A stretch of DNA of 64,000 bases from an uncultured Paraburkholderia sp. (lineage in GTDB: Bacteria > Pseudomonadota > Gammaproteobacteria > Burkholderiales > Burkholderiaceae), in assembly GCA_940746715.1 (NCBI GenBank), contig CALNWN010000003.1:310001-374000 (forward strand), written 5' to 3'. The notes beneath the pieces are model-generated. The model was given only the letters and a program-made list of their open reading frames with translations, was not told where the DNA came from and did no database searches. This document shows, piece after piece, positions 1-64,000 of the stretch. Positions within the stretch are counted from its first letter, which is position 1, and every line of letters begins with the position of its first letter. Both the position numbers and the translations under genes were made by a program.

Positions 1-148
1 CCCGGTTCTGACAGGTGCTAGCGTCGGGTTCTCGTATGGGCTCACCGTGTTGATGCCGGTTTTTGCGATTGCCGGAATCGCCTCTGCTCGCCGGCTCAAG
101 AGGCGCAATCCCAGTGCGTTCGACGCACTGGGCAACTCGCGGCTCTAA
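1..148 (+). CDS. MFS transporter, C-terminal end (partial)
   Basis: The window opens inside a plus-strand reading frame that ends with TAA at 146-148. The last 48 residues contain one hydrophobic helix (FSYGLTVLMPVFAIAGIAS) followed by a short basic tail (ARRLKRR). This is the usual end of a major facilitator permease: final membrane helix, then a positively charged cytoplasmic tail. The family call is inference from this tail alone, and any 12-TM permease would look similar. A perfect 13-bp tandem duplication (142-154 and 155-167) spans the stop codon. Confidence 0.45.
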   Translation, partial: PVLTGASVGFSYGLTVLMPVFAIAGIASARRLKRRNPSAFDALGNSRL

Positions 149-167
149 CCCACCGCTCTAACCCACC
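142..167. repeat. 13-bp perfect tandem duplication
   Basis: GCTCTAACCCACC occurs twice without a gap. The first copy carries the TAA stop of the upstream permease gene and the second lies just after it. It is one of a series of short perfect tandem duplications in this window. Confidence 0.8.
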
Positions 168-314
168 GCGTAGCGACTGATTCGTTCCCGCTGCTTGTAC
201 GCCAGATGAGGACGCTCTGCGCCGTTCAGCGGGATGGGCTTTGCCCGCGGTTTGTCGCACCGGAGATCGAATTTCATTCGGGCTACAGGATTCTTGATAA
301 AGCAGAGGTAGAAA

Positions 315-5104: not shown

Positions 5105-5862
5105 CTACACGCAGCGCCCGCCGTCCACTTCCAGACACACGCCCGTGAGAACTCGGCTTCGTCCGAAGCCAGATACAGCGCGGCGCTGGCAATGTCCTGC
5201 GGCGTCGAGAAGCGGCCGAGCGGAATGCCGGCGAGAAAGCGCTTGCGGTTCTCAGGCGTATCTTCGACGCCCATGAATTCCGACAGCAGCGCCGTTTCGC
5301 CGATCACCGGATTCACGCAGTTCACGCGGATGCGGTCGGGCCCGAGTTCCACGGCAAGCGACTTGCTCGCGATGATCACTGCGCCCTTGCTGCCGTTGTA
5401 CCAGACGAGCCCCGGCCGCGGCCGCACGCCCGCCGTGGACGCGATATTGATGAAGCTGCCGCCGCCTTGCTCCCGGAAATACGGCACGAACTCTTGCACG
5501 CTCCAGTAGATGCTCTTCACGTTCACCGCATAGACGCGGTCGAACTCCGCCTCCGTGACTTCGAGCACCGGCTTGTTGCGATGCGTGGTGCCCGCGTTGT
5601 TGACGACGATCTGCACGCTGCCGAAGTCTTCCAGCGCCGCCTCGCGCAGCTTCTGCCAGTCCTCGCGTTGCGCGACGTTGCCCGCGACCGCAATCGCCTT
5701 GCCGCCCGCCAGCGCAATCTCGCTCGCGACGCGCTCGGCGGCCGGCCCGTTCAGATCGTTGACCACGACATTCGCGCCTTCGCGCGCGTAAGTCTTCGCG
5801 ATGCCTTCGCCGAAACCCGAGCCGCCACCCGTGACGATGGCGGTTTTACCTGTCAACCGCAT
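5105..5862 (-). pseudogene. SDR family oxidoreductase, frameshifted near its C terminus
   Basis: Short-chain dehydrogenase of about 252 residues when repaired. It shows the cofactor loop TGGGSGFGEGIAKTYAREG, the NNAG motif, catalytic Ser in INIASTAG and the YNGSK active-site pair. Near plus-strand 5148 one C of a TTCCTC sequence is missing, so the frame passes from YLASDEAEF into nonsense and runs to 4990. With the base restored the protein ends TGVCLEVDGGRCV and stops with TAG at 5105-5107, the normal end for this family. It sits between the ALDH and MFS genes on the same strand and probably oxidises an alcohol of the same pathway. The lesion removes only the last 15 or so residues, but those close the substrate pocket. 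Confidence 0.85.
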
Positions 5863-5945: not shown

Positions 5946-7385
5946 CTAGCCGTGCCGGATCGCAATAGTCTTCAGCACGGTGAAGCCATACAGCGCCTCG
6001 AAGCCTTTCTCGCGCCCATGGCCCGAATGCTTGACGCCGCCAAACGGCAATTCCACGCCGCCGCCCGCGCCATAGTTGTTGATGAACACCTGCCCCGAGC
6101 GGATGCGTCGCGCAAGACGCATCTGCCTTGCGCCGTCGCGTGTCCAGATGCCGGCCACGAGGCCGAATTGCGTGCCGTTGGCGAGTGCGAGTGCTTCGTC
6201 CTCGTCGCTGAAGGACATGGCGGCCAGCACGGGGCCGAACACTTCGTCGCGCGCGAGACGGTGGCTCGCGGGCACATCGCGCAACAAGGTGGGCGCCTGA
6301 TAGAAGCCGCTTTCCGGCGCTTCGGGAATCACTTCGCCGTGCGCGGCCATCGCAATGCCGTCGTGCTGCGCGTCCGACAGAAAGTCCCGCACGCGCCGTT
6401 GCTGCTTCGCGTTGATGAGCGGCCCGCAATCCAGGTCGGCATGCGAAGGGCCGACGCACAGCGCATTGAAAGCACCGCTCAGCCGGTCGAGCAGCGGCTC
6501 GTAAATGGCGCGATCGATCATCACGCGGCTGCCCGCCGAGCACGTTTGCCCGGCGTTCTGCACGATGGCCGAGACGAGCACGGGCAGCGCGGCGTCGAGA
6601 TCCGCATCGGCGAAAACGATTTGCGGGGACTTGCCGCCCAGCTCCAGCGTGACCGGCACGTGGTTCTCAGCGGCCATTTGCGTGACGAGCTTGCCGGTTT
6701 CGGGCGAACCGGTGAACGAAATATGGTCGATGCCCGGATGACGCGCGAGCGCCGCGCCGGCGTCGTGTCAATAGCCGGTGACGACATTCAGCGCACCCGC
6801 GGGCAGGCCCGCTTCGGCCGCCAGTTCGGCGACGCGCAGCACCGACAGACACGCGTCCTCGGCAGGTTTGACGACGCAGGCGTTGCCCACGGCGAGCGCC
6901 GCGCCGACGCTGCGTCCGAATATCTGCATCGGATAGTTCCACGGCACGATGTGGCCGGTCACGCTGTGCGGCTCGCGGATCGTCATGACCGTGTAGCCGG
7001 CTTGGTAGGGCAGCGTTTCGCCGTGAAGCTTGTCCGCCGCGCCCGCGTGGAACTCGAAGTAGCGCACGAGCGCCGCGGAATCCGCGCGCGCCTGCTTGAG
7101 CGGCTTGCCGGTGTCGCGCGCTTCGAGCTGCGCCAGTTCTTCCTGATGCGCGGCGACGAGCATGGAGAGCCGGTACAGCACGCGTCCGCGTTCGGCCGCG
7201 CTGGCCGCGCCCTAGGCGCCTTCAAAGGCGCGGCGGGCGGCGTGCACGGCGGCGTCGATATCCGCCGCGGTGCCGCGCGCGAGTTGAGTGAACGGCTTGC
7301 CGTCCGAGGGATCGAGCACGGCGATCGTCTCGCCGCCTGAGGCAGCGGCCCACTCGCCGCCGATGAAATGCCGGGCTTCTTGCAT
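5946..7385 (-). pseudogene. Aldehyde dehydrogenase with two in-frame stop codons
   Basis: An NAD(P)-dependent aldehyde dehydrogenase of 479 codons, starting MQEARHFIGGEW. Family marks are all present in one frame: IVPWNYPMQ, FTGSPETGK, the catalytic Glu in LELGGKSPQ, the catalytic Cys in NAGQTCSAGSR, and EVFGPVLA. Two stops interrupt it without any frame change. TAG at 7212-7214 follows RAFEGA, where the family has Trp (TGG). TGA at 6768-6770 follows NVVTGY, where Gly is usual. Two independent nonsense codons make a real pseudogene likely, and a single sequencing slip cannot explain both. It is the first gene of the ALDH-SDR-MFS operon. It ends IAIRHG with TAG at 5946. Confidence 0.85.
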
Positions 7386-7664: not shown

Positions 7665-8192
7665 ATGAGCTTCAATAACGTCCCCGCAGGGAAAGACCTT
7701 CCGCAAGATTTCAACGTCATCATCGAAATCCCGGCGCAAAGCGACCCGGTGAAGTACGAAGCCGGCAAGGACCTGGGCCTGCTCGTCGTCGACCGTTTCA
7801 TCAGCACGGGCATGCGCTATCCGGCCAACTACGGCTTCATCCCGCAAACGCTGTCCGGCGACGGCGACCCGGTCGACGTGCTGGTCATCACGCCGTTCCC
7901 GCTGCTGGCCGGCTCGGTGGTGCGCGCACGCGCGCTCGGCATGCTGCAAATGACCGACGAATCGGGCGTGGACGCCAAGCTGATCGCCGTTCCGCACGAC
8001 AAGATCTGCCCGATGACCGCGAGCCTCAAGTCCATCGACGACGTGCCGGCTTACCTGAAGGACCAGATCAAGCACTTCTTCGAGCAATACAAGGCGCTGG
8101 AAAAGGGCAAGTGGGTGAAGGTCGAAGGCTGGGCCGACATCGACGCCGCGCACAAGGAAATCAGCGAAGGCGTGGCGAACTACAAGAAGTAA
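7665..8192 (+). CDS. ppa: Inorganic pyrophosphatase, family I
   Basis: Soluble cytoplasmic enzyme of 175 residues that hydrolyses pyrophosphate to phosphate and pulls biosynthetic reactions forward. Active-site signatures of bacterial family I enzymes are clear: the E-K pair in VIIEIPAQSDPVKYE, YPANYGFIPQT, the Asp-rich metal site GDGDPVDVLV, and K-rich KGKWVKVEGW near the end. The length fits the hexameric bacterial type. The ATG at 7665 is the first Met giving the family N terminus MSFNNVPAGKDLPQ. It is monocistronic, with a strong terminator 70 bp downstream. The gene is essential and intact, in contrast with its damaged neighbours. Confidence 0.98.
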   Translation: MSFNNVPAGKDLPQDFNVIIEIPAQSDPVKYEAGKDLGLLVVDRFISTGMRYPANYGFIPQTLSGDGDPVDVLVITPFPLLAGSVVRARALGMLQMTDESGVDAKLIAVPHDKICPMTASLKSIDDVPAYLKDQIKHFFEQYKALEKGKWVKVEGWADIDAAHKEISEGVANYKK

Positions 8193-8486: not shown

Positions 8487-10611
8487 ATGATGAACCGCAA
8501 GTCCCACCCGCCGTCTTTCCTGCCCCGCTGGTCGAATCGGCTGTATGCGATCGCCTCGGCGATCTATCGCAAGCGGCCGGTGTGGATGGTGTCGTTTTCC
8601 GCCAGCGAGGCGAGTCTCTCCGAAGGCTTGCGGGCCGCGTGCGCGTCGACGGCCATGCTCGCGGTGGGCAACCTGCTGCACGACCCGATTTTTGCGTGGG
8701 CGGCCATCGGCGCGTTCTGGACCTGTCTCGCAAATGCCGGCGGTTCCAACCGCGCGCGCTTTGCGTCGATGATGGGCTTCGCGCTGCTTTCCACGCTATG
8801 CGGCGGGCTCACCGCCTTGGCGTCGGCGAGCGAAACGGCGGTCGCGGCGCTCGCGGTTCTCGTCTTCACGAGCCTGGGCGCGTTCGGCCGCATCTGGGGC
8901 GCGGCGACTTCCAAGTGACGATTCTCGCCGCCACCGCCTGCGTCGTGATGGTCGACCGGTCCATGCGCGACGTCCGCGAAGGGCTCGCGTTTCTCGGCGT
9001 CTATCTGCTCGGCTGCCTGTTCGCGGTCGCGCTGAGCCTGACCGTGTGGCGCATTCATCCGTTCGGTGCCAGCCGTTCTTCGTTGCGCACGGTGTATTGG
9101 CGGCTCGCGGACATTGCCTTCGACAGCGCCCGTCTGCTTCAGCAGCGCAGCACGCCGCGCGAGTGGGGCGACCCATGCCGCGCAGTTTCGCGCCGATGCG
9201 CGCCGCGCTCGAGCGCTCGCGCAAGGCGCTGGCCCGCGTGCCGGCCACACGCACCGGCGCGCGCGAGACTTACGACACGCTGCTCGGCTTGCTGACCGAA
9301 GGGGAGGCGTTGTTCGCCTATCTGATCGCCGTCTCGGGCGCGTGCGAAAAGATGCCCGCCGGCGCGAACAATGAGCCGCGCGCGCCCGCCATACCGTGCG
9401 GGCGGCCCGTCTGCTCGCGGGCATGGGCGAGCTGCTGCGCAACATCGGCGTGGACGCGAACGAAGCGCGCTGGACCCATCTCGCCCGGCTGCAGATGCGT
9501 TTGCGCCGGCTCGCGCGGCGTCTCGAACCTGCGCTGATGGAGCCGGTCAAGCTGAAGTCCGATTTCGAACTGGTCGATTTCACGCCGCTGCAGGCGCCGC
9601 CGCGGTTCGCCCAAAGCGTCGCAGTCACGCTCGCGCGAGTGTGGTCGACGCTCAAGGCGAATCTGTCTTTCGAGTCCGTGGGTTTGCGCCACGCGGCGCG
9701 CGTCGGCGTCACGACGACGGCCGGCTTTCTGGTGATTCGCGCGCTGGGTTTGCCGTTCGGCTACTGGGCGACCATGGCGACGCTGCTGATTCTGCAGCCG
9801 TCGATTGCCGCGACCTGGCCGCGCAGCATCGAGCGCGCGGCGGGCAGCATCGTCGGCGGCGTGCTAGCGGCTGGCATCGGCTATGCGATTCATTCGCCGC
9901 TCGGCATTTCGCTCGCGGTCTTCCCGCTCGTCATGGCGACCATGGCATTGCGCCCCATCAGCTACAGCCTGTTCGTGCTGTTCCTCACGCCGACGTTCGT
10001 GTTCGTCGCCGACTTCGCGACGCCGGGCGCGAGCGAGTTCGCGTTTGCGTTGACGCGCCTCGGCAACAACGTGCTTGGCTGCGTGCTGGCGCTCTTCGCC
10101 ACCTTCTACCTGTGGCCGACGCGCGAGAAAACCGACTACCGCGCGTATCTCGGCGACGCCGTGCGCGCCAATCTCGCCTACCTGCTCGCGGCGCTGGATT
10201 CGCCTCGCCGGAACGAAAAGGAGGTGGAGCGCCTGCGCAGGGCGGCGGGCTCGGCAGCAACAACGCGGAGGAAGCGATCGCGCGCGTTCGACTGGAAAAG
10301 CTCGAGGACTCGATGGTCGACACGGTCACGCTGACGGTGCTGAGTCTGCTGCGCAAGATGGCGGGGACGGCGACGCAGCTGCGGCTGAGCGCCAACCGGC
10401 ACGAACTGCACGATATGGACGCGCAGCTGCGCGCATGGGGGTCACGGCGGTGAGCGCCGATATCGAGGCCGCGCTGAATCGGACGATTGTGCCGCTGCGG
10501 CACGAGCTGCCCGCGCGCGAGCGCCTGAGCTCGCTCGAAGCGGACGCGGTGGGCGAGCTTGCACTGATGCAGCGTCTGCTCACCGAACGGATGCGCGAAG
10601 CGCGCGGTTAA
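8487..10611 (+). pseudogene. FUSC-family inner-membrane exporter, five frameshifts
   Basis: When joined, the fragments give a protein of about 709 residues of the FUSC/aromatic-acid-exporter family (YccS, AaeB): two clusters of membrane helices, each followed by a cytoplasmic helical domain. The reading moves through frames starting at 8487, 8435, 9046, 9396, 9371 and 10075. The shifts lie near 8908, 9170-9180, 9370-9395, 10240 and 10437. All five have the sign of a one-base loss. Three can be placed: ACCTTCC read as ACTTCC, GGCCTCGG read as GGCTCGG, and a G run one short. The second helix cluster (RHAARVGVTTTAGFLVIRAL, then WATMATLLILQPSIAATWPR) is well preserved. A gene with five hits is not functional unless the consensus is wrong. 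Confidence 0.85.
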
Positions 10612-10960: not shown

Positions 10961-12026
10961 TCAGCCTTTGAACGGATTATGTTCGCGCAGCTCGTCCACA
11001 TCAGGAAGCCGCGTGCCATTTTGTGCTCGCTCTGCGCGCCGCCTTCGAAAGCGCCGAGCTTTTCTTCGATGCAGAATTCGAGCGGCTGATAGTACGCGGT
11101 CTCGAAGTGCAGGCACGGCACGTGTTCGAGCGCGCCCCGGTAACGGCCGTACAGCGTGCCGCTGGTTTTTGTGTCGCGCTTATAGACCACGAGCGAACTC
11201 GCAATCGGCTTGCCCTCGTATTCCGCGATCACGAGCAGTAGGTTCTCCCGCATCGACGCGCCGATCATGCGGAAAAAGTCGAGGTTCAGATACGGGCTCG
11301 AAAAGTGCTCGCGGTAAGTCTGCCGGTAACACTTGCTGAAAAAGCGCCAGTCCGCGTCCTGAATGTCCTTGCCGCGGATGCGGCGCATCGCGATGCCGGC
11401 GTCGCGCACCTTTCGGCGTTCCGCGCGAATGTTCTTGCGCTTCTTCTGTTCGAGCGTCGAAAGAAAGTCGTCGAAGTCGCGGTAGCCGTCGTTCAACCAG
11501 TGAAACTGCACGCCTTCGCGCTGCATCATGCCCATTTCGGTGAGCGCGTTGGCCTCGGCTTCGGTCGGAAACAGCACATGCAGGGACAACACGTCGGCCT
11601 GCTCGGCGAACGCCATCAAGGTGGCCGCGAGATGCCGCAACGCGTGGGCGTCGGCGGCAAGAAGACGTGTGCTTTGCACGGGCGTGAAGGGCACGGCGCA
11701 CAGGAGCTTGGGGTAATAGGGCGGCCCGTTGCGCTTGTAGGCGTCGGCCCAGGGGCCCAGGCCCAGTCGAACACATACTCGCCGTACGAGTGGCCCTTCA
11801 GATAAACCGGCGCCACCGCGAGCTTGCCCGTGAGCGTGACGAATTGCGGCGCCCAGCCGGTGTCCGCGACCGCGCAACGCGTGGCGTGCAGCGCGCTCAG
11901 GAATTCGTGCCGCAAAAACGGCGTGGGTTGCGGCTGCCGCGCGAGGAGGGCGTTCCATTCGGCGGCGTCCACCTCGGAAGGCGACGCCAGAATGCCCGTG
12001 CGATAATCAAAGCGTTCCTGATTCAA
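10961..12026 (-). pseudogene. GNAT-like (COG3146) acyltransferase, 8-bp duplication and internal deletion
   Basis: The family is recognised from FLRHEFLSALHATRC, YYPKLLCAVPFTPVQSTRLL, KKRKNIRAERRKV and the FETAYYQPLEFCIEEKLGAF segment, typical of COG3146/DUF482 peptidogalycan-biosynthesis-type GNAT-fold proteins. Two lesions are seen. First, an 8-bp perfect tandem duplication (11746-11753 and 11754-11761) shifts the frame between DWAWA and DAYKRNG. Second, after EHKMARGFL the sequence jumps to DVDELREHNPFKG and the stop at 10961. In the family about 30 residues lie between these segments, so roughly 90-100 bp seem to be missing, again with a frame change. The start is uncertain: no ATG gives the family N terminus, and I use the TTG at 12026 (LNQERFDYRTGIL). 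It faces nadE divergently. Confidence 0.8.
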
Positions 12027-12162: not shown

Positions 12163-13917
12163 ATGAAGACACGAATCGCTCTTGCTCAAATCAATGTCAC
12201 CGTCGGCGACTTCGCCGGCAACGTCGCGAAGATCGTCGCCGCCGCGCGTGACGCGCACCAGGCCGGCGCCAGACTGCTGATCGCGCCCGAACTCGCGCTG
12301 TCCGGCTATCCGCCCGAAGATCTGCTGCTGCGCCCCGCGTTCTACACCGCGAGCGACGCGGCGTTGGCGGACCTCGCCGCGCAGCTCAAGCCGTTTGCGG
12401 GGCTGCATGTGATCGTCGGTCATCCGCTGCGCGATGGGGCAAACAGCGGGGCAGGCGGCGCGAACCAGGGTCATGGTAATGCAAACAGGCCGATCGAGCG
12501 CGGCGTGCCGCCGGTCGACACGTTCAATGCGGCCTCGCTGCTCGTCGACGGCAGGATTGCGGGCACTTATCGCAAGCAGGATCTGCCCAACACCGAGGTG
12601 TTCGACGAGAAGCGCTATTTCGCGTCCGACCCACAGCCGTTCGTGTTCGAACTCGACGGCGTGAAGTACGGCGTGGTGATCTGCGAAGACGCGTGGCACG
12701 CATCGGCCGCGCAAATGGCGAAAGCCGCGGGCGCACAAGTGCTGCTCATTCCGAACGGCTCGCCTTTCCACCTGAACAAGGAGGCGGTGCGCTTCGACAT
12801 TCTGCGCGCGCGGATTCGCGAAACCGGGCTGCCAATGGTCTACGTGAACATGGTCGGCGCACAGGACGAGCTCGTGTTCGACGGTGGCTCGTTCGTGCTC
12901 GACGCGCAAGGCGAACTTGTGGCGAAGATGGCGCAGTTCGAAGAGGCGACCGCGTTCGTCGACTTCGACAACGGCGCGCCGCTGTGCGGCGAGGCGAGGC
13001 GCGCAGCGAACGCGGACACCGGAGCGAGCAGCGCAATCGCGCCCGAGCTTTCGCTCGAGGCGCAGGTCTACGCGGCGCTCGTCATGGGCGTGCGCGACTA
13101 CGTGAACAAAAACGGCTTTCCAGGCGCGATCATCGGACTCTCGGGCGGCGTGGATTCGGCGCTGGTGCTGGCCGTCGCGTGCGATGCGCTCGGCGCTGAG
13201 CGCGTGCGCGCGGTGATGATGCCGTCTCGTTACACGGCCGACATCTCCACCACCGACGCCGCCGATATGGCCCGCCGCGTCGGTGTGCGCTATGACGAAA
13301 TCGCGATTGCGCCGATGTTCGACGCGTTCCGCAGCTCGCTCGCGCAAGAATTCGAAGGACGCCCGGAAGACGCCACCGAGGAGAACATCCAGGCGCGCAT
13401 TCGCGGCACGCTGCTGATGGCGCTGTCGAACAGGTTCGGCTCAATCGTGCTCACCACCGGCAACAAGAGCGAGATGGCGGTGGGCTACTGCACGCTCTAC
13501 GGCGACATGGCGGGCGGCTTCGCGGTGATCAAGGACATTGCGAAAACGCTGGTTTATCGCATGTGCCATTACCGTAATCAGGCTGCGAGCTTCGAGAAGC
13601 AGGACGTGATCCCCGAGCGCATTCTGACGCGCGCGCCGTCCGCGGAATTGCGCGAGAACCAGACCGATCAGGACAGCCTGCCGCCCTATGACGTGCTCGA
13701 CGCGATCATGCGCATGTACATGGAAGAGGACCGCTCCCTCGCCGAAATCGTCGCGGCCGGTTACGCGGCCGAAGACGTGAAGCGCGTCACGCGGCTCATC
13801 AAGATCAACGAGTACAAGCGCCGCCAGGCGCCGATCGGCATTCGCGTCACGCATCGCGCGTTCGGCCGCGACTGGCGTTATCCGATCACGTCACGCTACA
13901 CCGAGCCGGTGGCGTGA
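12163..13917 (+). CDS. nadE: Glutamine-dependent NAD+ synthetase
   Basis: Protein of 584 residues with two domains. Residues about 1-260 form a nitrilase-type glutaminase, with Glu in LIAPELALSGYPPEDLL, Lys in YRKQDLPNTEVFDE, and Cys in GVVICEDAWH. Residues about 290-584 form the synthetase with the PP-loop GLSGGVDSALVLAVACDALG and TTGNKSEMAVGYCTLYGDMAGG. It converts nicotinic acid adenine dinucleotide to NAD+ using glutamine-derived ammonia through an internal channel. ATG 12163 (MKTRIALAQINVTVG) is the family start. An insert rich in Gly/Asn (GANSGAGGANQGHGNAN, about residues 92-108) lies in a surface loop of the glutaminase domain. glnB follows 115 bp downstream, a common Burkholderiales arrangement. 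The frame is intact. Confidence 0.97.
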   Translation: MKTRIALAQINVTVGDFAGNVAKIVAAARDAHQAGARLLIAPELALSGYPPEDLLLRPAFYTASDAALADLAAQLKPFAGLHVIVGHPLRDGANSGAGGANQGHGNANRPIERGVPPVDTFNAASLLVDGRIAGTYRKQDLPNTEVFDEKRYFASDPQPFVFELDGVKYGVVICEDAWHASAAQMAKAAGAQVLLIPNGSPFHLNKEAVRFDILRARIRETGLPMVYVNMVGAQDELVFDGGSFVLDAQGELVAKMAQFEEATAFVDFDNGAPLCGEARRAANADTGASSAIAPELSLEAQVYAALVMGVRDYVNKNGFPGAIIGLSGGVDSALVLAVACDALGAERVRAVMMPSRYTADISTTDAADMARRVGVRYDEIAIAPMFDAFRSSLAQEFEGRPEDATEENIQARIRGTLLMALSNRFGSIVLTTGNKSEMAVGYCTLYGDMAGGFAVIKDIAKTLVYRMCHYRNQAASFEKQDVIPERILTRAPSAELRENQTDQDSLPPYDVLDAIMRMYMEEDRSLAEIVAAGYAAEDVKRVTRLIKINEYKRRQAPIGIRVTHRAFGRDWRYPITSRYTEPVA

Positions 13918-13977: not shown

Positions 13978-14370
<393 letters not shown>

Positions 14371-35738: not shown

Positions 35739-36020
35739 ATGAGACATCCAGCGCTGCGGCGCTCCGCGCGCCATTCGAAGCGCGATGGCCGTCCTGCGAG
35801 CAAGGACGCTCCCGCTTCTTCCGCACCCGCTCCTGACTCTCAGGCCGCGCCCGGCGCGCCCGTCACGCCAGTGGCGCCTTCGGCCGCACAGCACCACGAT
35901 CCTTCCGCGCAGAACCGCGTCGCGCCTGACGGGCCGCCCGACGGCGAGTTTAACTAGGGCGGCGTGCGTCAGGAAGGAATCGACTATCAGCGCGACCTCG
36001 GCTCCGAGCAGGACGCCTGA
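35739..36020 (+). pseudogene. Small hypothetical gene interrupted by an amber codon
   Basis: GGAGG is placed 8 bp before ATG 35739. The frame begins MRHPALRRSARHSKRDGRPA, has an Ala/Pro-rich middle, and reaches TAG at 35955-35957 after GPPDGEFN. Directly beyond, the same frame gives GGVRQEGIDYQRDLGSEQDA and then TGA at 36018-36020. The tail looks like a real acidic C terminus, not shadow sequence. The amber lies in AACTAGGG, where AACCAGGG would encode Gln within a CCAGG site. It may be a genuine 72-residue protein, but a 93-residue original with a C-to-T change is more attractive. The function is unknown. Confidence 0.5.
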
Positions 36021-46193: not shown

Positions 46194-46194
46194 A

Positions 46195-47971: not shown

Positions 47972-49292
47972 TCAGCGTGCGCCGGTAATCTGCGAAACGT
48001 CGATCACATACATCTGGCGAGCGCCCTCGTGAACCGAGTCGATGCACACGGCGAGCCCGTCGCGGTTGCAGCACGGGTGCAGATCGCAGCGGTTTTCCTT
48101 CTTCAGATCCGGCGGTGCATAGAATTCGCCGATCCCGTAGCGAAGACCTTCGCGCATGTCGTACAGAAAGAGAACGCGCGTGTTCGTTTGCGAGTCCGAA
48201 TAGGTGTCGGACAGCAGCCAGCGCGTGTCGACGGGCGAAAAACTCATATGCCCGTTTTCGGTCAGCAGATCCCGGCCGATAACTTCCACGCGGCCGCGAT
48301 CGCTGTCTTCATACAGGTGGTAGTGGATGCTGCCCGCGTGAGGGCCCCATACGACGATGTGCGAATCGTCTTGCCACAGCGGATGCGAGATCTGGTATTC
48401 GGACTTCTCATAGTCGAAGGTGCCGACCGCGGAAGGATCGAAATCATCCGCTAATTGCGGCAGTGGATGATCCGAGCATTCGAGCAGGCGCATGTCGGAG
48501 CCATCCGGGTTCATCGTGATGAGACGATGCAGGAAACAGGTTTCGTCTGCGGTGCGTTCGGTCCAGCGGTGCAGAAACAGCACGCGCGACGATGCCGGAT
48601 TGATTTCTATGTGGCTCACCCAGTGAATGGCGTGCTCCATCGACTCAACATAGTGAAAGCGGCGCAAATCGTCGTAGCTGACAATCAATGCGAGTTCGCC
48701 TGTTGCGAGATCAAGGCGGTATATGCCGTCGTCTGCCGGTGCAAGTTGCAACGGAAACGGGCCGCCGTGCTCGCTGTAGCCTATGGTCTCGTGCGTGACA
48801 TAAAGGCGCCGGTAATCGACACACAGGGCGTAGCGGCTATCGGGGGAACACACGTAGACCGGCGCAGAGCGCTGTTTTCTTGCCGCTGTCGATGTCGAAA
48901 ACTGTCGCGCCGAAGCCTGGATAGCGCGCGGACAGGTCACCGGTGCGGGTGTTGTAGATCACCTTGCGGCCGGGTTCGCCGTCGAGCCACTGCAACTGGC
49001 AGCCCATTTGCCAGTTCCATGCAGTGGTCGTGTCGAGCGGATGAAACGACTCGTTTTCCTGAACATCGAAATAGCCGACTGCCGCTAGCAGTTCCGGACC
49101 AAGCGGTGCATCCATCATGGCGACTTCGTTGCCGAGCACGTAGCGTCCGGTGCGGTCCCAGACGCTCTTGTTGTAGTAGCCGAAGAAATGATGGCGCTCG
49201 CCGGTGCCCAGCCGTCGGATGGGACACAGGCGCCTGACAGATCGCGCATACAGCGGAAGAGAATCAACAGTGGGATGCGGCGAAGCGGTCAT
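47972..49292 (-). pseudogene. Beta-propeller protein (TolB/oligogalacturonide-lyase-like), frameshifted
   Basis: About 439 residues when repaired, without a signal peptide. It begins MTASPHPTVDSLPLYARSVR, and HHFFGYYNKSVWDRTGRYVL supplies the first blade. Repeated blades of the WD/TolB kind follow: HIEINPASSRVLFLHRWTER, HPLWQDDSHIVVWGPHAGSI, GHMSFSPVDTRWLLSDTYSD, DLHPCCNRDGLAVCIDSVHE. One extra A in an AAAA run (plus-strand TTTT 48875-48878) shifts the frame between DIDSGKK and QRSAPVYVCSPDS. It is first in the operon with gltIJKL (90 bp to gltI) and divergent from a LysR gene, so it probably acts on the transported compound. The reaction is unknown. Confidence 0.75.
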
Positions 49293-54100: not shown

Positions 54101-54821
54101 ATGACAGATCGTCCGCCTTCCCGATTACGAAAAAATGGCCTGCCGAGCATCCTGAGCGCCTTCAGCTTTACTCGCTGCCCACGCCGAACGGCGTGTGTCG
54201 ATCATGCTCGAAGAAATCGGCTTGCCTTACGAGCCGCATCTGGTGCGTTTCGACACCAACGACTAGATGACGCCGGAATTCGTGTCGCTGAATCCGAACA
54301 ACAAGATTCCGGCGATCATCGATCCGAACGGCCCCGACGGCAAGCCTTTGCCGCCCTTCGAATCCGGCGCGATTCTGATCTATCTCGCGGACAAGACCGG
54401 GCAGTTGATTCCGCAGGACGCCGCCGGCCGCTACGAGGCCATTCAATGGGTGATGTTCCAGATGGGCGGCATCGGCCCGATGTTCGGCCAGCTCGGCTTT
54501 TTCCACAAATTCGCAGGCAAGAAGTATGAAGATGAAGACAAGCGTCCGCGCGATCGCTATGTCGCCGAATCGAGGCGTTTGCTCGGCGTGCTCGAGCAGC
54601 GCCTGGAAGGACGCGAGTGGATTCTCGGCGATCAGTACTCGATCGCTGATAACTCGATCGCTGATATCGCGACGTTTCCGTGGGTGCGCAATCTGATCGG
54701 TTTCTATGAAGCCGGCGAACTGGTCCGCATCGAGGACTTTCCGAACGTGAGGCGCGTGCTGGCGGCGTTCGTCGCGCGGCCGGCGGTGATTCGGGGCCTG
54801 GATAGCCCGAAGCGGGGATAG
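54101..54821 (+). pseudogene. Glutathione S-transferase (YghU-like), two frameshifts, an amber and a duplication
   Basis: The repaired protein starts MTDRSAFPITKKWPAEHPER, continues LQLYSLPTPNGV, VSIMLEEIGLPYEPHLVRFD and PEFVSLNPNNKIPAIIDPNG, and has the C-terminal helical domain (QWVMFQMGGIGPMFGQLGFF, DIATFPWVRNLIGFYEAG). Lesions: one base missing after MTD (near 54110); about four missing after TPNGV (near 54200), where VKVSIML is usual; TAG at 54264-54266 after FDTND, where Gln is usual; and a 15-bp in-frame duplication at 54637-54666 giving YSIADNSIAD instead of YSIAD. A caller will report only 54267-54821, which lacks the glutathione-binding start. Four lesions in 0.7 kb make a true pseudogene very likely. 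Confidence 0.88.
54637..54666. repeat. 15-bp perfect tandem duplication inside the GST gene
   Basis: ACTCGATCGCTGATA is present twice back to back. It keeps the frame and adds five residues, doubling the SIAD motif before the catalytic-domain helix DIATFPW. Confidence 0.9.
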
Positions 54822-54938: not shown

Positions 54939-55688
54939 ATGCCCATCAACTATTTGCGCGGCTTCACGGCCCCCGAACGGACGGACGCGACCAATCGGCG
55001 TCTCGGCCGGTCTTTGGCATTCGTGGCGGGAGCGGCCAACGCGGGCGGTTTTCTCGCCGTCGGGCAGTACACGTCGCACATGTCCGGCATCGTGTCGTCG
55101 CTCGCGGACAATGTGGTGCTCGGCGACGTCAGCCTCTTCATTGCGGGGCTCAGTTCGCTGCTTTCGTTTGTGCTGGGCGCGGCGGCATCGGCGATTCTGA
55201 TCAACTGGGGCCGCCGACGGGAGCTGCGCAGCGTCTACGCCACGCCGCTTGCCATCGAAGCGGTACTCCTGCTTGGTTTCGGATTCGTCGGGGCGCGAAT
55301 CTCGAGCAGCATCGCGTGCTGTTTGTGCCGGTGACCGTCTGTATCCTTTGCTGCGTCATGGGCCTGCAGAACGCGATGATCACGAAGATCTCGCGCGCGG
55401 AAATTCGCACCACGCATGTGACCGGCCTCGTCACGGATGTGGGCATCGAACTCGGCAAGATGGTCTATTGGAATGCGCGGCCGCCTGCCGGTAAGGAACT
55501 GGTGCAGGCGGACCGGGAGAAGCTGGTTCTGCTGGGATCGCTGCTGCTTTCGTTTGTTCGCGGGCGGCTTGGCGGGCGCCGTCGGATTCAAGCATCTGGG
55601 CTTTGTGTCGACAGTGCCGCTCGCAATTGTCCTGCTGACGCTGGCGGCTGTGCCGCTGGTGGACGATATGCGGGGGAAGCGCGGGTAG
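54939..55688 (+). pseudogene. DUF1275 (YoaK-like) membrane protein, two frameshifts
   Basis: About 250 residues with six predicted helices: RSLAFVAGAANAGGFLAVGQ, YTSHMSGIVSSLADNVVLGD, SFVLGAAASAILINWGRRRE, then ARISSSIACC (out of frame). The proper continuation LEQHRVLFVPVTVCILCCVMG, QNAMITKISRAEIRTTHVTG, TDVGIELGKMVYWNA lies in the next frame from about 55296. A second shift near 55560 returns to the first frame for AGGLAGAVGFKHLGFVSTVP to MRGKRG. The motif GQYTSHMSG, then AMITKISRAEIRTTHVTG, is diagnostic for DUF1275. Function unknown. Confidence 0.85.
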
Positions 55689-55750: not shown

Positions 55751-55825
55751 TGGTCCCCCTGGCAGGAATCGAACCTGCATCTAGCGCTTAGGAGGCACTT
55801 GTTCTATCCATTGAACTACAGGGAG
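55751..55825 (-). tRNA. tRNA-Arg (anticodon CCU)
   Basis: On the minus strand a cloverleaf of 75 nt including an encoded CCA. The acceptor arms CTCCCTG and CAGGGGG pair with one G-T, the D-arm is GTTCAATGGATAGAAC, and the anticodon loop CTCCTAA lies between AGTGC and GCGCT. The T-arm GCAGGTTCGATTCCTGC is complete. The anticodon CCU reads AGG arginine codons. It is close to the 3' end of DUF1275, and no integrase follows. Confidence 0.93.
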
Positions 55826-57284: not shown

Positions 57285-57710
57285 ATGTTCAAAACGAAAT
57301 GGTTCAGCGGCGGGTTCAGCGGCAGATTGAGCGGCGCGGCGCTGGCCGGATTGCTGGCGGCGTCCGGTGCGGCGTAGACGGCAAGCGTGTCCTTCGTGCA
57401 GCCGACAGACGGCGCGACCGTCAGCAACCCCGTCCACGTGGTATTTGCTCTCGACGGCATGAAAGTCGCCCCAGCCGGCACGACGACGGACGGCACGGGC
57501 CATCACCATCTGCTGGTGGACGGCAAGCCGCTCGCGAAAGGCGAGGTGATTCCTGCCAACGATAAATCGCTGCACTTCGGCAAGGGGCAGACGGAAACCG
57601 ATCTGACGCTGCCGCCCGGCGACCATACGCTGACGCTGCAATGCGGCGACGGCGCACACCGCTCCTATGGTCCCGAACTGAGCAAGACGATCACCGTGCA
57701 TGTGAAGTAA
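57285..57710 (+). pseudogene. DUF4399 periplasmic protein with amber codon at the signal cleavage site
   Basis: Starts MFKTKWFSGGFSGRLSGAAL, AGLLAASGAA, the signal peptide. TAG at 57375-57377 follows, and the same frame continues TASVSFVQPTDGATVSNPVH, VVFALDGMKVAPAGTTTDGT, GHHHLLVDGKPL and ends KTITVHVK. DUF4399 domains have the HHH motif and a beta-sandwich. The amber replaces what is usually Gln or Ala at the mature start (CAG or GCG). It lies in GCGTAGACG, so it is not a CCWGG context. AGGAGAAGACG precedes the ATG. Apart from the amber the frame is clean, so a suppressor would restore it. Function unknown. Confidence 0.8.
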
Positions 57711-57933
57711 GCGCCGCTCGGCTCATGGTTTGCCGGGCGCTTACCCATAGCGCCCCGGCGGCGCTCTCAATGCCCGCGCCCCTGGCGAACGGCCGGCAGC
57801 GTGTTTCCTACGGCCGTCTGCGCCGGCCATCTCGAGCGCAGCCGTTCGTCCTATATCTTCAGGCATACAGGCAGCGGCCCGTGCGCCCGGTACAATAGCA
57901 GTTCCGAGTCATCGCTGTCTTCGCCAATTTTCC

Positions 57934-59892
57934 ATGTCGCTTTACACCATTACCGGAGCCCAGCTGGCGTTCGGTCACGTCGCGTTGCTCGATCACGCCG
58001 ACTTTTCTCTCGAAGCGGGCGAGCGGGTCGGGCTGATCGGTCGCAACGGCGCCGGCAAGTCGTCGCTGCTGAAAATCGTCGCTGATCTGGCCCGGCCTGA
58101 CGACGGCCTCGTCACGCGCCAGCAGAATCTGACCACGGTGTACGTGCCGCAGGAACCCGAGTTCGATGCGGACGACACCGTGTTCGACGCCGTCGCGGCC
58201 GGCCTCACGCACGCCCGCGCGCTGCTCGACGAATACGACGTGGTCGCCAACCAGCTCGCGGATGAGCCCGAAGGCGCGCAGCACGACGCGTTGATGGCGC
58301 GCATGAACACGCTGCAGTCGTCGCTGGACGCGGCGGACGCCTGGAACTGGAGCACGCGCGTCGCCACCACGCTGCAGCAGATCGGCCTGAACGGCGAGGC
58401 GCGCGTGGGTTCGCTGTCGGGCGGCATGCAAAAGCGTGTCGCGCTTGCTCGCGCGCTCGTCGTGCAGCCCGACGTGCTGCTGCTCGACGAACCGACCAAT
58501 CACCTCGATTTCGACGGCATCCGCTGGCTCGAAGAACTGCTCGTGTCGCTGCGCGCGGCGCTCCTGTTCATCACGCACGACCGCGCGTTTCTCGACCGTG
58601 TCGCCACCCGCATCGTCGAGCTGGATCGCGGGCGTCTCTTGTCCTATCCGGGCAACTTTTCGGCTTATCAGACGCGCAAGGCGCAGCAACTGGAGATCGA
58701 GCGCGTCGAAAACGAGAAGGCCGACAAGCTGCTCGCCCAGGAAGAAGTGTGGATCCGCAAGGGTGTCGAGGCGCGCCGCACGCGCAGCGTCGGCCGGATT
58801 GCGCGGCTCGTGGAAATGCGCAAGCAGCGCGCCGAGCGCCGCAACGTGCAGGGCAACGTCAAGCTGGACGTCGGTCAGGGCGAGAAGTCGGGCAAGATCG
58901 TTGTGGAACTGACGGATGTCACGAAGCGCTACGGCTCGCGCACGGTGATCGACCGGTTTACCGCGACTGTGATGCGCGGCGACAAGATCGGTTTTGTCGG
59001 CCCGAACGGCGCGGGCAAGACCACGCTGCTGAAGATCATTCTCGGCGAACTGAAGCCCGACGAAGGCACGGTGCGCGTCGGCACCAACCTGCAGGTCGCG
59101 TATTTCGACCAGATGCGCGCGCAACTGGATCTGGAAAAAAGTCTCGCCGATACCATCAGCCCCGGCAGCGAGTGGGTCGAGGTCAACGGGCAGAGAAAGC
59201 ACGTCATGAGCTATCTCGGCGACTTCCTGTTCGCGCCGGAGAGCGCGCGTTCGCCGGTCAAGTCGCTGTCGGGCGGCGAGCGCAACCGTCTGCTGCTGGC
59301 GCGCCTTTTCGCGCGGCCGGCCAACGTGCTGGTGCTCGACGAACCGACCAACGACCTCGACATTCCCACGCTGGAACTGCTGGAGGAACTGCTCACCGAC
59401 TACGACGGCACCGTACTGCTCGTGAGCCACGACCGCGCGTTCCTGGATAACGTGGCGACATCGGTGATCGCGTCCGAAGGCGGGGGCAAATGGCGCGAGT
59501 ATGTCGGCGGCTTCACCGACTGGCAGGTGCAAAGCGAGCGCTCGCAGGAGCTGGCGCAGGAAGCGCAGAAAGACGCGGCCAAGGACGCAGCCAGAGAAGC
59601 AACTAAAGACGCCACTAAAGACACACCGGCCAAAGACACTTCATCTGCCCGCAATCCGCAGCGCGCCGCGAAGCTCTCCTTCAAGGAACAGCGCGAACTC
59701 GAGGCGTTGCCGGGAAAAATCGCCGCGCTCGAGGCGGAGCAGAAAGCCATCGGCGCGCAGCTTGAAGAAGGCTCCATATTCGCGAAAGACCCGCAGGAAG
59801 GCGCGCGTCTTTCCGAACGCTATGCCGCGATCGACGAGGAACTGCTGCTCGCGCTCGAGCGCTGGGACGAACTCGAAAACCGCCGCAAATGA
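57934..59892 (+). CDS. uup: ABC-F family ATPase Uup
   Basis: Soluble protein of 652 residues with two ATPase domains in tandem. First: GRNGAGKSSLLKIVADL, LSGGMQKRVALARALVVQ, LLLDEPTNHLD. Linker helix QQLEIERVENEKADKLLAQE. Second: GPNGAGKTTLLKIILGEL, LSGGERNRLLLARLFARP, LVLDEPTNDLD. The C-terminal part is a charged coiled coil (KDAAKDAAREATKDATKDT, AAKLSFKEQRELEALPGKIA), typical of Uup, which binds branched DNA and ribosomes and prevents precise excision of transposons. The short Lys/Asp/Ala repeats in the linker vary in length between species. The frame is intact. Confidence 0.93.
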   Translation: MSLYTITGAQLAFGHVALLDHADFSLEAGERVGLIGRNGAGKSSLLKIVADLARPDDGLVTRQQNLTTVYVPQEPEFDADDTVFDAVAAGLTHARALLDEYDVVANQLADEPEGAQHDALMARMNTLQSSLDAADAWNWSTRVATTLQQIGLNGEARVGSLSGGMQKRVALARALVVQPDVLLLDEPTNHLDFDGIRWLEELLVSLRAALLFITHDRAFLDRVATRIVELDRGRLLSYPGNFSAYQTRKAQQLEIERVENEKADKLLAQEEVWIRKGVEARRTRSVGRIARLVEMRKQRAERRNVQGNVKLDVGQGEKSGKIVVELTDVTKRYGSRTVIDRFTATVMRGDKIGFVGPNGAGKTTLLKIILGELKPDEGTVRVGTNLQVAYFDQMRAQLDLEKSLADTISPGSEWVEVNGQRKHVMSYLGDFLFAPESARSPVKSLSGGERNRLLLARLFARPANVLVLDEPTNDLDIPTLELLEELLTDYDGTVLLVSHDRAFLDNVATSVIASEGGGKWREYVGGFTDWQVQSERSQELAQEAQKDAAKDAAREATKDATKDTPAKDTSSARNPQRAAKLSFKEQRELEALPGKIAALEAEQKAIGAQLEEGSIFAKDPQEGARLSERYAAIDEELLLALERWDELENRRK

Positions 59893-60329: not shown

Positions 60330-62315
60330 ATGTCTACGAAAAAGCCAAACGCCGCGTATAGCGAAGCGTCGATCAAGGTGTTGAAGGGTCTCGAGCCGGT
60401 CAAGCAACGGCCCGGCATGTACACCCGCACCGAGAATCCGCTGCATATCATTCAGGAAGTTATCGACAACGCGTCGGACGAAGCCCTCGGCGGCTATGGC
60501 CGGCAAATCACGGTCACGCTGCACGCGGATCATTCGGTGTCGGTGGAAGACGACGGCCGCGGCATTCCCTTCGGCCTGCATCCCGAAGAAGGCGTGCCGG
60601 TCGTCGAAATCGTGTTCACGCGCCTGCACGCGGGCGGCAAGTTCGACAAAGCCGCCGGCGGCGCGTACACGTTCTCCGGCGGTTTGCACGGCGTGGGCGT
60701 GTCGGTCACCAATGCGCTTTCCACGCGCCTCGACGTCACCGTGTGGCGCGACGGCAAGGTCGCTGCGCTGAGTTTTGCGCATGGCGACGTGGCCAAGCCG
60801 CTCGAAGTCCGCGCCGCGGCGAAAGGCGAAAAAAAATCCGGCACACGCGTGACCGCGTGGGCGGATCCGAAGTACTTCGATTCGCCGAATCTGCCGCTCG
60901 GCGAACTGCAACGTCTGCTGCGCTCGAAAGCGGTGCTGCTGCCGGGCGTCGAAGTGACGCTCGTCAACGAAAAAACCGGCGAACAGCAAAGCTGGAAATA
61001 TGAAGACGGCTTGCGCGGTTACCTGCTCGAAGGCATGAACGGCAGCGACCTGCTGATTCCGCTTTTCGAAGGCGAGCGTTATGCCGAAAATTCGCGCGCG
61101 AGCGAAGAGACGTTCGCGGAAGGCGAGGGCGCGGCGTGGGTGGTCGCGTGGAGCGAGGAAGGCCCGCTCACGCGCGAGTCGTACGTCAATCTGATTCCGA
61201 CGCCCGCGGGCGGCACGCACGAATCGGGCTTGCGCGAAGGGCTTTATCAGGCGGTGAAGAGCTTTGTCGAGCTGCACAACCTGCAGCCGAAGGGCGTGAA
61301 GCTTCTCGCCGAAGACGTGTTCGCGCGCGTGTCGTTCGTGCTGTCGGCGAAGGTTCTGGACCCGCAGTTTCAAGGGCAGATCAAGGAGCGCCTGAATAGC
61401 CGCGACGCGGTCAAGCTCGTCGCATCGTTCGCGCGGCCGGCGCTCGAGCTGTGGCTCAACCAGCACGTCGAGCACGGCAAGAAGCTCGCGGACCTCGTCA
61501 TCAAACAGGCGCAGGCGCGCACACGCGCCGGCCAGAAGGTCGAGAAGCGCAAGAGCTCGGGCGTCGCGGTGCTGCCGGGCAAGCTGACCGATTGCGAATC
61601 GACGGATATCGGGCGCAACGAGTTGTTCCTCGTCGAGGGCGACTCGGCGGGCGGCTCCGCGAAAATGGGTCGCGACAAGGAATATCAGGCGATTCTGCCG
61701 CTGCGCGGCAAGGTGCTGAACACGTGGGAAACCGAGCGCGACCGTCTCTTTGCCAATAACGAGGTGCACGACATTTCGGTGGCGATCGGCGTCGATCCGC
61801 ATAGTCCGGACGACAAGGTGGATCTCTCCAACCTGCGTTACGGCAAGATCTGCATTCTGTCGGACGCGGACGTGGACGGCTCGCACATTCAGGTGCTGTT
61901 GCTCACGCTGTTCTTCAAGCATTTCCCGCAGTTGATCGAGCGCGGTCACGTGTGCGTCGCGCGCCCGCCGCTTTTTCGCGTCGACGCGCCCGCGCGCGGC
62001 AAGAAGCCAGCGCAGAAGCTGTATGCGCTCGACGAAGGCGAGCTCGAAGCGATTATCGACAAGCTGCGCAAGGACGGCGTGCGCGAGACGCAATGGTCGA
62101 TCAGCCGCTTTAAGGGCCTCGGCGAAATGAGCGCCGAGCAACTCTGGGATACAACGATGAACCCGGACACGCGGCGTCTCACGCCGGTCGCGCTCGGCGA
62201 GCTCGACTACGACACCACGGTCGCGCGCATGACCATGCTGATGGGCAAGGGCGAAGCGGCGTCGCGGCGCAGCTGGCTCGAAGAAAAGGGCAACGAGGTG
62301 GAAGCGGACATTTGA
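60330..62315 (+). CDS. parE: DNA topoisomerase IV subunit B
   Basis: ATPase subunit of 661 residues of the type IIA topoisomerase that decatenates daughter chromosomes. GHKL ATP site: EVIDNASDEALGGYG, DDGRGIPFGLHP, and the lid GLHGVGVSVTNALS. TOPRIM: LFLVEGDSAGGSAKMGRDKE, then LSDADVDGSHIQVLLLTLFF. The C-terminal end is FKGLGEMSAEQLWDTTMNPD. Length and the absence of the large GyrB insert fit ParE. ATG 60330 (MSTKKPNAAYSEASIKVLKG) is supported by homologues. parC follows at 62370. The frame is intact. Confidence 0.96.
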   Translation: MSTKKPNAAYSEASIKVLKGLEPVKQRPGMYTRTENPLHIIQEVIDNASDEALGGYGRQITVTLHADHSVSVEDDGRGIPFGLHPEEGVPVVEIVFTRLHAGGKFDKAAGGAYTFSGGLHGVGVSVTNALSTRLDVTVWRDGKVAALSFAHGDVAKPLEVRAAAKGEKKSGTRVTAWADPKYFDSPNLPLGELQRLLRSKAVLLPGVEVTLVNEKTGEQQSWKYEDGLRGYLLEGMNGSDLLIPLFEGERYAENSRASEETFAEGEGAAWVVAWSEEGPLTRESYVNLIPTPAGGTHESGLREGLYQAVKSFVELHNLQPKGVKLLAEDVFARVSFVLSAKVLDPQFQGQIKERLNSRDAVKLVASFARPALELWLNQHVEHGKKLADLVIKQAQARTRAGQKVEKRKSSGVAVLPGKLTDCESTDIGRNELFLVEGDSAGGSAKMGRDKEYQAILPLRGKVLNTWETERDRLFANNEVHDISVAIGVDPHSPDDKVDLSNLRYGKICILSDADVDGSHIQVLLLTLFFKHFPQLIERGHVCVARPPLFRVDAPARGKKPAQKLYALDEGELEAIIDKLRKDGVRETQWSISRFKGLGEMSAEQLWDTTMNPDTRRLTPVALGELDYDTTVARMTMLMGKGEAASRRSWLEEKGNEVEADI

Positions 62316-62369
62316 GCGGCATAAGCGCTCCCGCACGACACTTCACGCCAAACACGATACGGATTCCAG

Positions 62370-64000
62370 ATGGACGACGATAACACTCTCGACCTTTTCA
62401 CCGAGCCGCCGCCCGAAGGCGACTTCCTCACGCTCGGCAATTACGCGGAAGGCGCCTATCTTCAGTACGCAGTGAGCGTGGTGAAGGGGCGCGCGCTGCC
62501 CGACGTCTGCGACGGGCAGAAGCCCGTGCAGCGGCGCATCCTCTACGCAATGAACGAGCTTGGCCTAAGCGACAACGCCAAGCCAGTCAAGTCGGCGCGC
62601 GTGGTGGGCGACGTGATCGGTAAGTATCATCCGCATGGCGACCAGTCGGCGTACGACGCGCTCGTGCGTCTCGCGCAAGACTTTGCGATGCGCTATCCGC
62701 TTATCGACGGGCAGGGCAATTTCGGCTCGCGCGACGGCGACGGCGCCGCGGCCATGCGATACACCGAAGCGCGCCTCACGCCGATCTCGAAGCTCCTGCT
62801 CGACGAAATCGATCAGGGCACGGTCGATTTCATGCCGAACTACGACGGCGTCGAACAGGAGCCGCGCCAACTGCCCGCGCGCCTGCCGTTCCTCCTGCTC
62901 AACGGCGCGTCGGGCATTGCCGTGGGCCTCGCCACGGAGATTCCCTCGCACAATCTGCGCGAAGTCGCGGCAGCCACGGTCGCGATGATCCGCAATCCAA
63001 AGATCGTACACGCGGACCTGATGCAGCACATGCCGGGGCCTGATTTCCCCGGCGGCGGCCAGATCATTTCGAGTGAAGCGGAAATCGCGGCGGCGTATGA
63101 GAGCGGCCGCGGCAGCCTGAAAGTGCGCGCCCGCTGGAAGATCGAGGACCTCGCGCGCGGCCAGTGGCAACTGGTTATCACCGAATTGCCGCCGAACACG
63201 GCTGCGCAGAAGGTGCTCGAAGAAATCGAGGAGCAGACCAACCCGAAGATCAAGCTCGGCAAGAAGGCGCTCACGCCCGAGCAGTTGCAGGCGAAGCAAA
63301 CCATGCTCAGTCTGCTCGACGCGGTGCGCGACGAGTCCGGCAAGGACGCGCCCGTGCGTCTTGTGTTCGAGCCAAAGTCGAGCCGCATCGATCAGACGGA
63401 GTTTGTCAACACGCTGCTCGCGCATACGAGCCTGGAGTCGAACGCGTCGCTGAATCTCGTGATGGTGGGCGGCGACGGCCGGCCGCGCCAGAAGGGCTTG
63501 AGCGAAATCCTGCACGAGTGGATCGCGTTCCGCTTCGCCACGGTCACGCGCCGCACGCGTCATCGGTTGACTAAGGTGGACGACCGGATCCACATCCTCG
63601 AAGGCCGGATGATCGTCTATCTGAACATCGACGAGGTCATCCGCATCATTCGCGAGTCCGACGAACCGAAGGTCGCGCTGATGGCCGCGTTCGGGCTGTC
63701 GGACCGGCAGGCCGACGACATCCTCGAAATCCGGCTGCGGCAGTTGGCGCGGCTCGAAAAGATCAAGATCGAGAAAGAACTCGCGGAGCTGCGCGACGAG
63801 AAGGCGAAGCTCGAGGAACTGCTCGCAAGCGAACCGGCGATGAAGCGTCTGCTCATCAAGGAAATCGAAGCCGACGCGAAGCAATACGGCGACGAGCGCC
63901 GCACGCTCATCCAGCAGGAAAAGCGCGCCACGTATGAGGCGCGCGTGATCGACGAACCGGTCACGGTCGTGGTCTCGCAAAAGGGCTGGGTGCGCGCGCT
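62370..64000 (+). CDS. parC: DNA topoisomerase IV subunit A (partial, runs off the window)
   Basis: Starts ATG 62370 ([20 protein letters not shown]) and remains open to the window end, 543 codons. DNA-cleavage domain: [20 protein letters not shown], then [20 protein letters not shown] (quinolone-determining helix with Gln at the position of E. coli Ser80 and Asp at that of Glu84), [20 protein letters not shown] with catalytic Tyr131. The tower/coiled-coil end ([20 protein letters not shown]) is reached. It forms A2B2 with ParE encoded 54 bp upstream. The missing part is the C-terminal DNA-wrapping domain. The frame is intact. Confidence 0.95.

Follow-up and report, generated by a model that had tools for sequence, protein, structure and literature searches.

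Gene damage across a Paraburkholderia genome points to early erosion in a host-restricted bacterium, probably a leaf symbiont

The 64,000-bp stretch of DNA analysed here (hereafter, the window; C3:310001-374000 of genome G000, from an uncultured Paraburkholderia sp.) carries 18 genes damaged by frameshifts, stops, duplications or deletions, together with unbroken core genes such as ppa, nadE and parE (Table 1). The genome holding it comprises 5,181,803 bp in 51 contigs, with a completeness of 99.93% and a contamination of 0.13%. A search of 144 genomes of the genus with a 2.2-kb stretch revealed G080 (7.3 Mb) as the nearest one at 96% identity, followed by G057 (92%), G088 (taken as P. rhynchosiae WSM 3937, 91%) and G099 (90%). 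Protein matches in databases likewise point to relatives, P. rhynchosiae WSM 3937 at 99% for otsA and Paraburkholderia sp. SUR17 at 95% for a window protein. G080 is collinear with the entire window at 94–96% DNA identity. Compared to this closest relative, the genome is reduced in size (5.18 Mb vs 7.3 Mb); 12 same-genus relatives from our first search are also larger (5.6–9.5 Mb), and a few more distant genomes among the 144 are smaller than 5.18 Mb.

Damage was scored by frameshift-aware protein-to-DNA alignment of G080 gene models with window DNA. There were 54 such models; one lies mostly beyond the window edge, leaving 53 to be scored. The short-chain dehydrogenase (SDR) and the gltL-like ATPase are not among the G080 models and were scored separately, the gltL-like frame being read as it stands. 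Sixteen of the 53 models were damaged, which with the two additional genes makes 18, each with 1 to 6 frameshifts or stops. The original prediction, made from the letters of the window, had counted about 19 damaged genes, several of them hit more than once. Eighteen of these and the multiple hits were confirmed, while no gene could be matched to a ‘hydrolase’ on its list, all models that lie between the propeller and glutathione S-transferase genes being unbroken relative to G080. The comparison with a close relative that it had suggested found these genes whole in G080. Core genes named there as unbroken (ppa, nadE, glnB, otsA, uup, parE and the portion of parC inside the window) are indeed devoid of frameshifts and stops; nadE, uup and parC have in-frame indels relative to G080. 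In nadE there is also a pair of opposite 1-bp gaps, at most 6 bp apart, that may be an alignment effect.

Table 1. Damaged genes, unbroken genes and other features in the window, and DHQ-synthase-family matches on contig C17 of the same genome. G-numbers denote relatives.
Feature	Position	Strand	State	Basis of name
Short-chain dehydrogenase (SDR)	5108..5862	-	1 frameshift near C-terminal end; intact in G080, G057, G088, G099	Pfam, on G011 copy
Aldehyde dehydrogenase	5949..7385	-	2 nonsense codons; 0 lesions in 5/5 relatives	Pfam
ppa (inorganic diphosphatase), core	7665..8192	+	no frameshift/stop	
FUSC-family membrane protein	8487..10608	+	6 frameshifts	Pfam
FemAB-like/GNAT protein	10964..12026	-	97-bp deletion vs G080, 8-bp tandem duplication, in-frame deletions	Pfam
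nadE (NAD+ synthase), core	12163..13917	+	no frameshift/stop; two in-frame deletions vs G080	
glnB (P-II nitrogen regulator)	14032..14370	+	no frameshift/stop	
ABC permease (hisM-like)	17112..17819	-	2 frameshifts	Pfam, on window fragment
Solute-binding protein (hisJ-like)	18828..19615	-	14-bp tandem duplication	Pfam
Response regulator	21713..22434	+	2 frameshifts	Pfam
GGDEF diguanylate cyclase	24295..25979	-	2 frameshifts	Pfam
Small open reading frame	35739..36017	+	1 nonsense codon	no Pfam match
otsA (trehalose-phosphate synthase)	36251..37678	+	no frameshift/stop	
MFS exporter	37791..39224	-	2 frameshifts; C-terminal stop common to four relatives not counted	Pfam
LysR regulator	42720..43666	-	1 frameshift, 1 nonsense codon; G011 also frameshifted	Pfam
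ABC ATPase (gltL-like)	44794..45519	-	nonsense at codon 15; open in G080	Pfam, on remaining frame
ABC permease (gltJ-like)	46198..46931	-	1 frameshift	Pfam
Solute-binding protein (gltI-like)	47000..47726	-	2 frameshifts; 57-bp deletion vs G080 with 8-bp shared ends	Pfam
Propeller protein	47975..49163	-	1 frameshift	original prediction; no Pfam match
Glutathione S-transferase	54101..54818	+	2 frameshifts, 1 nonsense codon	Pfam
DUF1275 protein	54939..55685	+	2 frameshifts; also disrupted in G088, G099	Pfam
DUF4399 protein	57285..57707	+	nonsense codon in N-terminal part	Pfam
Junction of 123-bp deletion vs G080	57755..57764	.	10-bp shared ends; upstream of uup	
uup (ABC-F ATPase)	57934..59892	+	no frameshift/stop; one in-frame deletion	
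parE, core	60330..62315	+	no frameshift/stop	
parC	62370..64000	+	part inside window without frameshift/stop; cut by window end	original prediction
Intact cyclase-type frame, 401 amino acids	contig C17, L208:301-1506			DHQ-synthase family
Fragment of second DHQ-synthase-family gene	C17:45307-45534			

The same 54 models were mapped to relatives, where any frameshift or stop was seen in 3 of 51 mapped models in G057, 2 of 53 in G088, 4 of 52 in G099, 2 of 44 in G042 and 3 of 49 in G011. Replacing G080 by other reference genomes gave the same picture: damaged and intact genes numbered 14 and 25 in the window with G088 as a reference, 15 and 23 with G057, 14 and 25 with G099, and 11 and 23 with G011, as opposed to 0 and 45, 1 and 40, 0 and 43, and 0 and 37, respectively, in G080. 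In the reverse test, where open reading frames of the window were scored against G080, 4 of 41 were called damaged; three of these are fragments of broken window genes running past the lesion and one results from the choice of an upstream start. Two other measures of damage, de novo gene calls and coding density, were dropped, the simple caller used having underestimated density even in healthy relatives.

One could ask whether such losses are no more than the accessory-gene turnover typical of Paraburkholderia strains. Relatives, too, lack some window genes or carry them in disrupted form: the DUF1275 gene is broken in G088 and G099, and the glt-like transporter region (44794-49163), present in G080, G057, G088 and G099, has no counterpart in the syntenic stretch of G011, G006 and G042 and is thus accessory within this group. 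Yet the same pipeline finds 0–2 damaged genes of about 40 between relatives and 11–15 of 34–39 in the window, and the G080 genes mapped in a 285-kb comparison (see below) include 3 damaged of 102 in G057 and 1 of 98 in G099, whereas the genome of the window has 69 of 170. Across all controls, there were 0–4 damaged genes per comparison. Ordinary strain variation is, in our view, extremely unlikely to account for the damage.

Pairwise comparison of the window with G080 revealed 133 indels. The 25 frame-breaking indels in modelled genes that could be polarised by outgroups all map to the branch leading to the window, while the G080 branch has none; six further ones were ambiguous or could not be polarised, and the lesions in the SDR and gltL-like genes lie outside this set. 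Fourteen of the 25 are single-base changes. The original prediction had placed most single-base lesions in C/G runs, but only 5 of these 14 fall in runs of at least 4 (longer allele; read from the indel listing). Among the remaining polarised indels are a deletion of 4 bp, tandem duplications of 8 and 14 bp, and changes of 2 bp within CG repeats. There are also larger deletions of 97, 57 and 123 bp relative to G080, two of them with 8–10 bp of shared ends. Of nine polarised indels within intact genes, six have a length divisible by three.

The damage extends well beyond the window. In total, nine regions were sampled: a 285-kb stretch of G080 contig C4 that includes the window's counterpart, five 20-kb samples from other contigs, and three further regions, two of which were picked around rpoC and mutS and are therefore biased towards core genes. 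Counts omit models extending past aligned ends (10 in the five-sample set and 12 in the three-region set). Of 182 models in the 285-kb stretch, 101 are intact in the window's contig, 69 damaged and 12 absent; the corresponding numbers are 31, 31 and 6 for the five samples and 57, 14 and 2 for the three further regions. Pooled, 114 of 323 genes of the relative are damaged, 20 absent and 189 intact.

Lesions are also unevenly spread. The 123 lesions of the 285-kb set (106 frameshifts and 17 stops) are concentrated in 69 of 170 genes, while 82.5 would be expected under uniform scatter (a value this low was reached in 8 of 20000 simulations), in agreement with the clustering noted in the window. 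The longest intact run comprises 16 genes, including nuoD, nuoH and nuoL, and was matched in 19 of 5000 shuffles. The rpoC region contains no lesions in 11.7 kb of coding DNA (rpoB beside rpoC is named from size and order only); an equal density of lesions in essential genes elsewhere, which would have spoken against erosion, was thus not found there. Damage is patchy from region to region: 2 of 15 genes are hit in a sample of contig C9, 10 of 19 (and 6 absent) in one sample of contig C1, 10 of 51 in another region of C1, and 0 of 6 around rpoC.

These data bear directly on the competing idea, raised together with the prediction, that errors of sequencing or assembly in a poor consensus account for most lesions. 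Such errors could well produce the many 1–2 bp indels seen here, and would give no missense excess in damaged genes beyond a branch-wide relaxation, as is observed (see below). However, at 0.67 lesions per kb about 8 would be expected in the 11.7 kb of the lesion-free rpoC region, lesions are clustered as described, with a 16-gene intact run, and indels in intact genes tend to be multiples of three. Besides, 17 of the 123 lesions are stops, duplications of 8 and 14 bp and deletions of 57, 97 and 123 bp occur, entire genes are gone, and the completeness and contamination of the assembly are good. Because the tested essential regions are free of lesions and many of the lesions differ from single-base errors in runs, we consider a poor consensus a very unlikely source of most of the damage.

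Nine of the ten damaged genes in the C1 region with 51 genes were annotated, the tenth lying outside the annotation. They encode a ppiB-like protein, serine acetyltransferase, tex, hflX, a metallo-beta-lactamase-fold protein, two alpha/beta hydrolases, hslO and comEC. To our knowledge, none of the nine is generally essential, although the damaged serine acetyltransferase may matter for cysteine supply. Thus, widely conserved yet non-essential genes also fall.

We next consider selection. After removal of 12 poorly aligned genes (10 damaged and 2 intact) and a codon filter, 72 of 170 aligned genes were usable, with both outgroups agreeing. In intact genes, the ratio of nonsynonymous to synonymous substitution rates (dN/dS, hereafter ω) was 0.069 for the branch of the window and 0.029 for that of G080 (P-value 8.5e-5), indicating weaker purifying selection in the former. 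Damaged genes gave 0.118 and 0.050, respectively. The between-branch ratio is therefore about 2.4 in damaged and intact genes alike, and relaxed constraint acts across the whole window branch about equally. Damaged genes do have higher ω than intact ones, both on the window's branch (0.118 vs 0.069, P-value 0.0065) and for genes of the window only (0.247 vs 0.136, P-value 0.0065), but the same contrast is found on the sister branch (0.050 vs 0.029, P-value 0.025). For this reason, higher ω was dropped as an independent proof of dead genes and is not used as proof of their age: the same genes are also higher on the sister branch, and the excess vanishes. A stronger contrast in the larger unfiltered set (0.347 in damaged vs 0.083 in intact genes) was judged to be inflated by misalignment across large deletions.

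A gene found outside the window suggests what the host may be. Matches to the 3-dehydroquinate (DHQ) synthase family number three in G000 and one in each of five relatives. The match on contig C13 was taken as aroB, its score being on a par with that of the one copy in relatives. Two further matches, a 401-amino-acid frame and a fragment, lie on contig C17 (62.9 kb) and are absent in all five relatives. The best structure match of the intact C17 protein is PDB 4p53, ‘Cyclase’. Its closest named homologues come from an uncultured Caballeronia metagenome-assembled genome (MAG; 88% identity), Candidatus (Ca.) P. kirkii UZHbot1 (88%), Ca. P. calva (86%) and Ca. B. humilis (83%), while outside that group identity does not exceed 61% among the 120 matches listed. 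The three named Candidatus species are known as Rubiaceae leaf symbionts (for Ca. P. kirkii, see also PMC8599487). By its sequence, the C17 protein would accordingly be classed as a cyclase of leaf-symbiont type. Other frames on C17 encode radical SAM, TauD-like and nucleotide-sugar dehydrogenase proteins.

One report describes massive genome erosion in leaf-nodule Burkholderia and places this synthase, in Ca. B. kirkii, on a plasmid absent from free-living Burkholderiaceae (PMC8599487); according to another, most non-nodulated leaf endophytes of Vanguerieae belong to Paraburkholderia (PMC10405798). Together with the cyclase homologues, these data make a Rubiaceae leaf symbiont the most likely identity of the bacterium. 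A different host or form of endosymbiosis, with the erosion real and the cyclase acquired by transfer, would be compatible with the deviating composition of the cyclase contig (GC lower, 0.56–0.57). Biosynthetic genes are described in one study as moving horizontally among leaf-nodule symbionts, and similar decay is known there from a host-bound Burkholderia, a beetle symbiont with 43.87% pseudogenes (PMC11542224). Yet the homologues above 61% identity that could be named among the matches listed all come from the Caballeronia MAG and the three Candidatus species above, and the genus is the very one reported for the Vanguerieae endophytes (PMC10405798). We regard another host as unlikely, albeit clearly less so than either a poor consensus or strain variation.

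Two other observations were made in the window itself. A tRNA-Arg (CCT) gene is located at 55751-55825, in a stretch that varies in length among relatives, and the site is possibly an insertion hot spot. Segments 31496-32422 and 34248-35188 cross-match each other's counterpart region in several relatives at ~67–69% DNA identity and in opposite orientation; the second falls inside the gene of a sigma-54-dependent regulator (33835-35235).

Taken together, the results make us rather confident that the window belongs to a recently host-restricted Paraburkholderia, most likely a heritable Rubiaceae leaf symbiont, whose genome is in an early stage of erosion. The original prediction of ongoing erosion in a host-restricted lineage is supported by the damage to 114 of 323 sampled genes, by the restriction of all 25 polarised frame-breaking indels to the window's branch, by ω of 0.069 against 0.029, and by the cyclase. 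We infer that the bacterium lives in a plant, is transmitted vertically and owes its decay to bottlenecks. In a sheltered niche and at small effective population size, purifying selection would be relaxed; indels, nonsense changes and deletions between short homologies would then become fixed in genes dispensable within the host. Genes needed for growth would still be protected, so that indels there would persist mainly if they are in frame.

Several observations weigh against this interpretation. First, in damaged genes, which have 1.5 frameshifts per kb, the missense excess is indistinguishable from zero: the neutral fraction of the branch is estimated as –0.02 (confidence interval (CI) –0.11 to 0.036) or 0.012 (CI –0.047 to 0.055). 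Since there is no extra missense, these data limit the time that damaged genes have spent without constraint to about 5% of the branch at most (upper bounds 0.036–0.055). Genes with at least two lesions likewise have no higher ω than those with a single one (0.101 vs 0.163). Second, damage in the window does not follow conservation: identity to the outgroup is 0.908 for damaged and 0.912 for intact genes (52 genes, P-value 0.6). The claim that damage is confined to dispensable genes therefore holds in the sense of non-essential genes but not of less conserved ones, with tex, hflX, hslO, ppiB and comEC among those affected. Third, relatives also have a few broken genes, some of which are intact in the window; otsA and an ABC ATPase gene, for instance, each carry one frameshift in G057. 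Fourth, one transposase domain is present in 4 copies compared to 3, 8, 3, 0 and 0 in relatives, so that no insertion-sequence expansion was seen for this one family in the part of the assembly covered (20 small contigs read as N). AT-biased mutation was considered and dropped: a GC-to-AT shift in the window (P-value 0.003) was reversed in the unfiltered set (P-value 0.01) and was not significant after filtering (P-value 0.37). Finally, the host is deduced from a biosynthetic gene.

Indels, rather than substitutions, seem to be in excess on the window's branch. In unmodelled or intergenic DNA, 33 polarised indels fall on this branch and 10 on that of G080, although only 43 of 373 indels could be polarised there and such DNA may conceal decaying genes. 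In-frame indels in intact genes number 6 and 0, respectively. Synonymous changes are distributed the other way (552 on the window's branch and 672 on that of G080), so that the odds ratio for the indel excess is 4.7 (P-value 1.6e-6). Decay seems to be recent and led by indels. It is conceivable, though rather doubtful, that a recent rise in the indel rate disabled hundreds of genes almost simultaneously, before substitutions could build up. Loss of mismatch repair through gene breakage finds no support in mutS and mutL, which look whole: both frames are open, mutS with 897 amino acids as in G080 and mutL with 712 compared to 715. The rise, if real, would therefore stem from another source or from a missense change. 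The wide lead of indels over substitutions is the aspect of our finding that is least accounted for.

Erosion in a host-restricted leaf symbiont of the Burkholderia group is a known phenomenon, here caught early. Leaf-nodule symbionts are known for smaller and more degraded genomes. The genome described here differs from those of Psychotria symbionts in that it has 5.18 Mb, is rated 99.93% complete and has close relatives that include P. rhynchosiae; the lack of a measurable excess of missense change makes its erosion look young. The likeness lies in the cyclase, 83–88% identical to that of Ca. Paraburkholderia/Caballeronia kirkii and other Psychotria leaf-nodule symbionts (PMC8599487). The leaf endophytes that live in Fadogia, Vangueria and other Vanguerieae without forming nodules (PMC10405798) belong to the same genus and share with it, probably, the association with leaves. 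LvStB, a Burkholderia symbiont of Lagria beetles, has 43.87% of its open reading frames as pseudogenes, in similar abundance per replicon, but differs in its host, in its defensive compound and in its many transposases, where we found no expansion in the one family tested (LvStB data from PMC11542224). Sodalis glossinidius, with almost 50% pseudogenes according to PMC7067036, is also host-bound but lives in insects and belongs to another lineage.

Most of the better-known symbionts are well past the early stage of erosion. In the present case, a collinear 7.3-Mb relative at about 95% identity makes the process readable almost event by event, showing which genes are lost first, through what kinds of lesion and at what pace. 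The apparent excess of indels without an excess of missense changes provides a handle on whether relaxed selection alone is at work or a change in the mutation process has been added to it.

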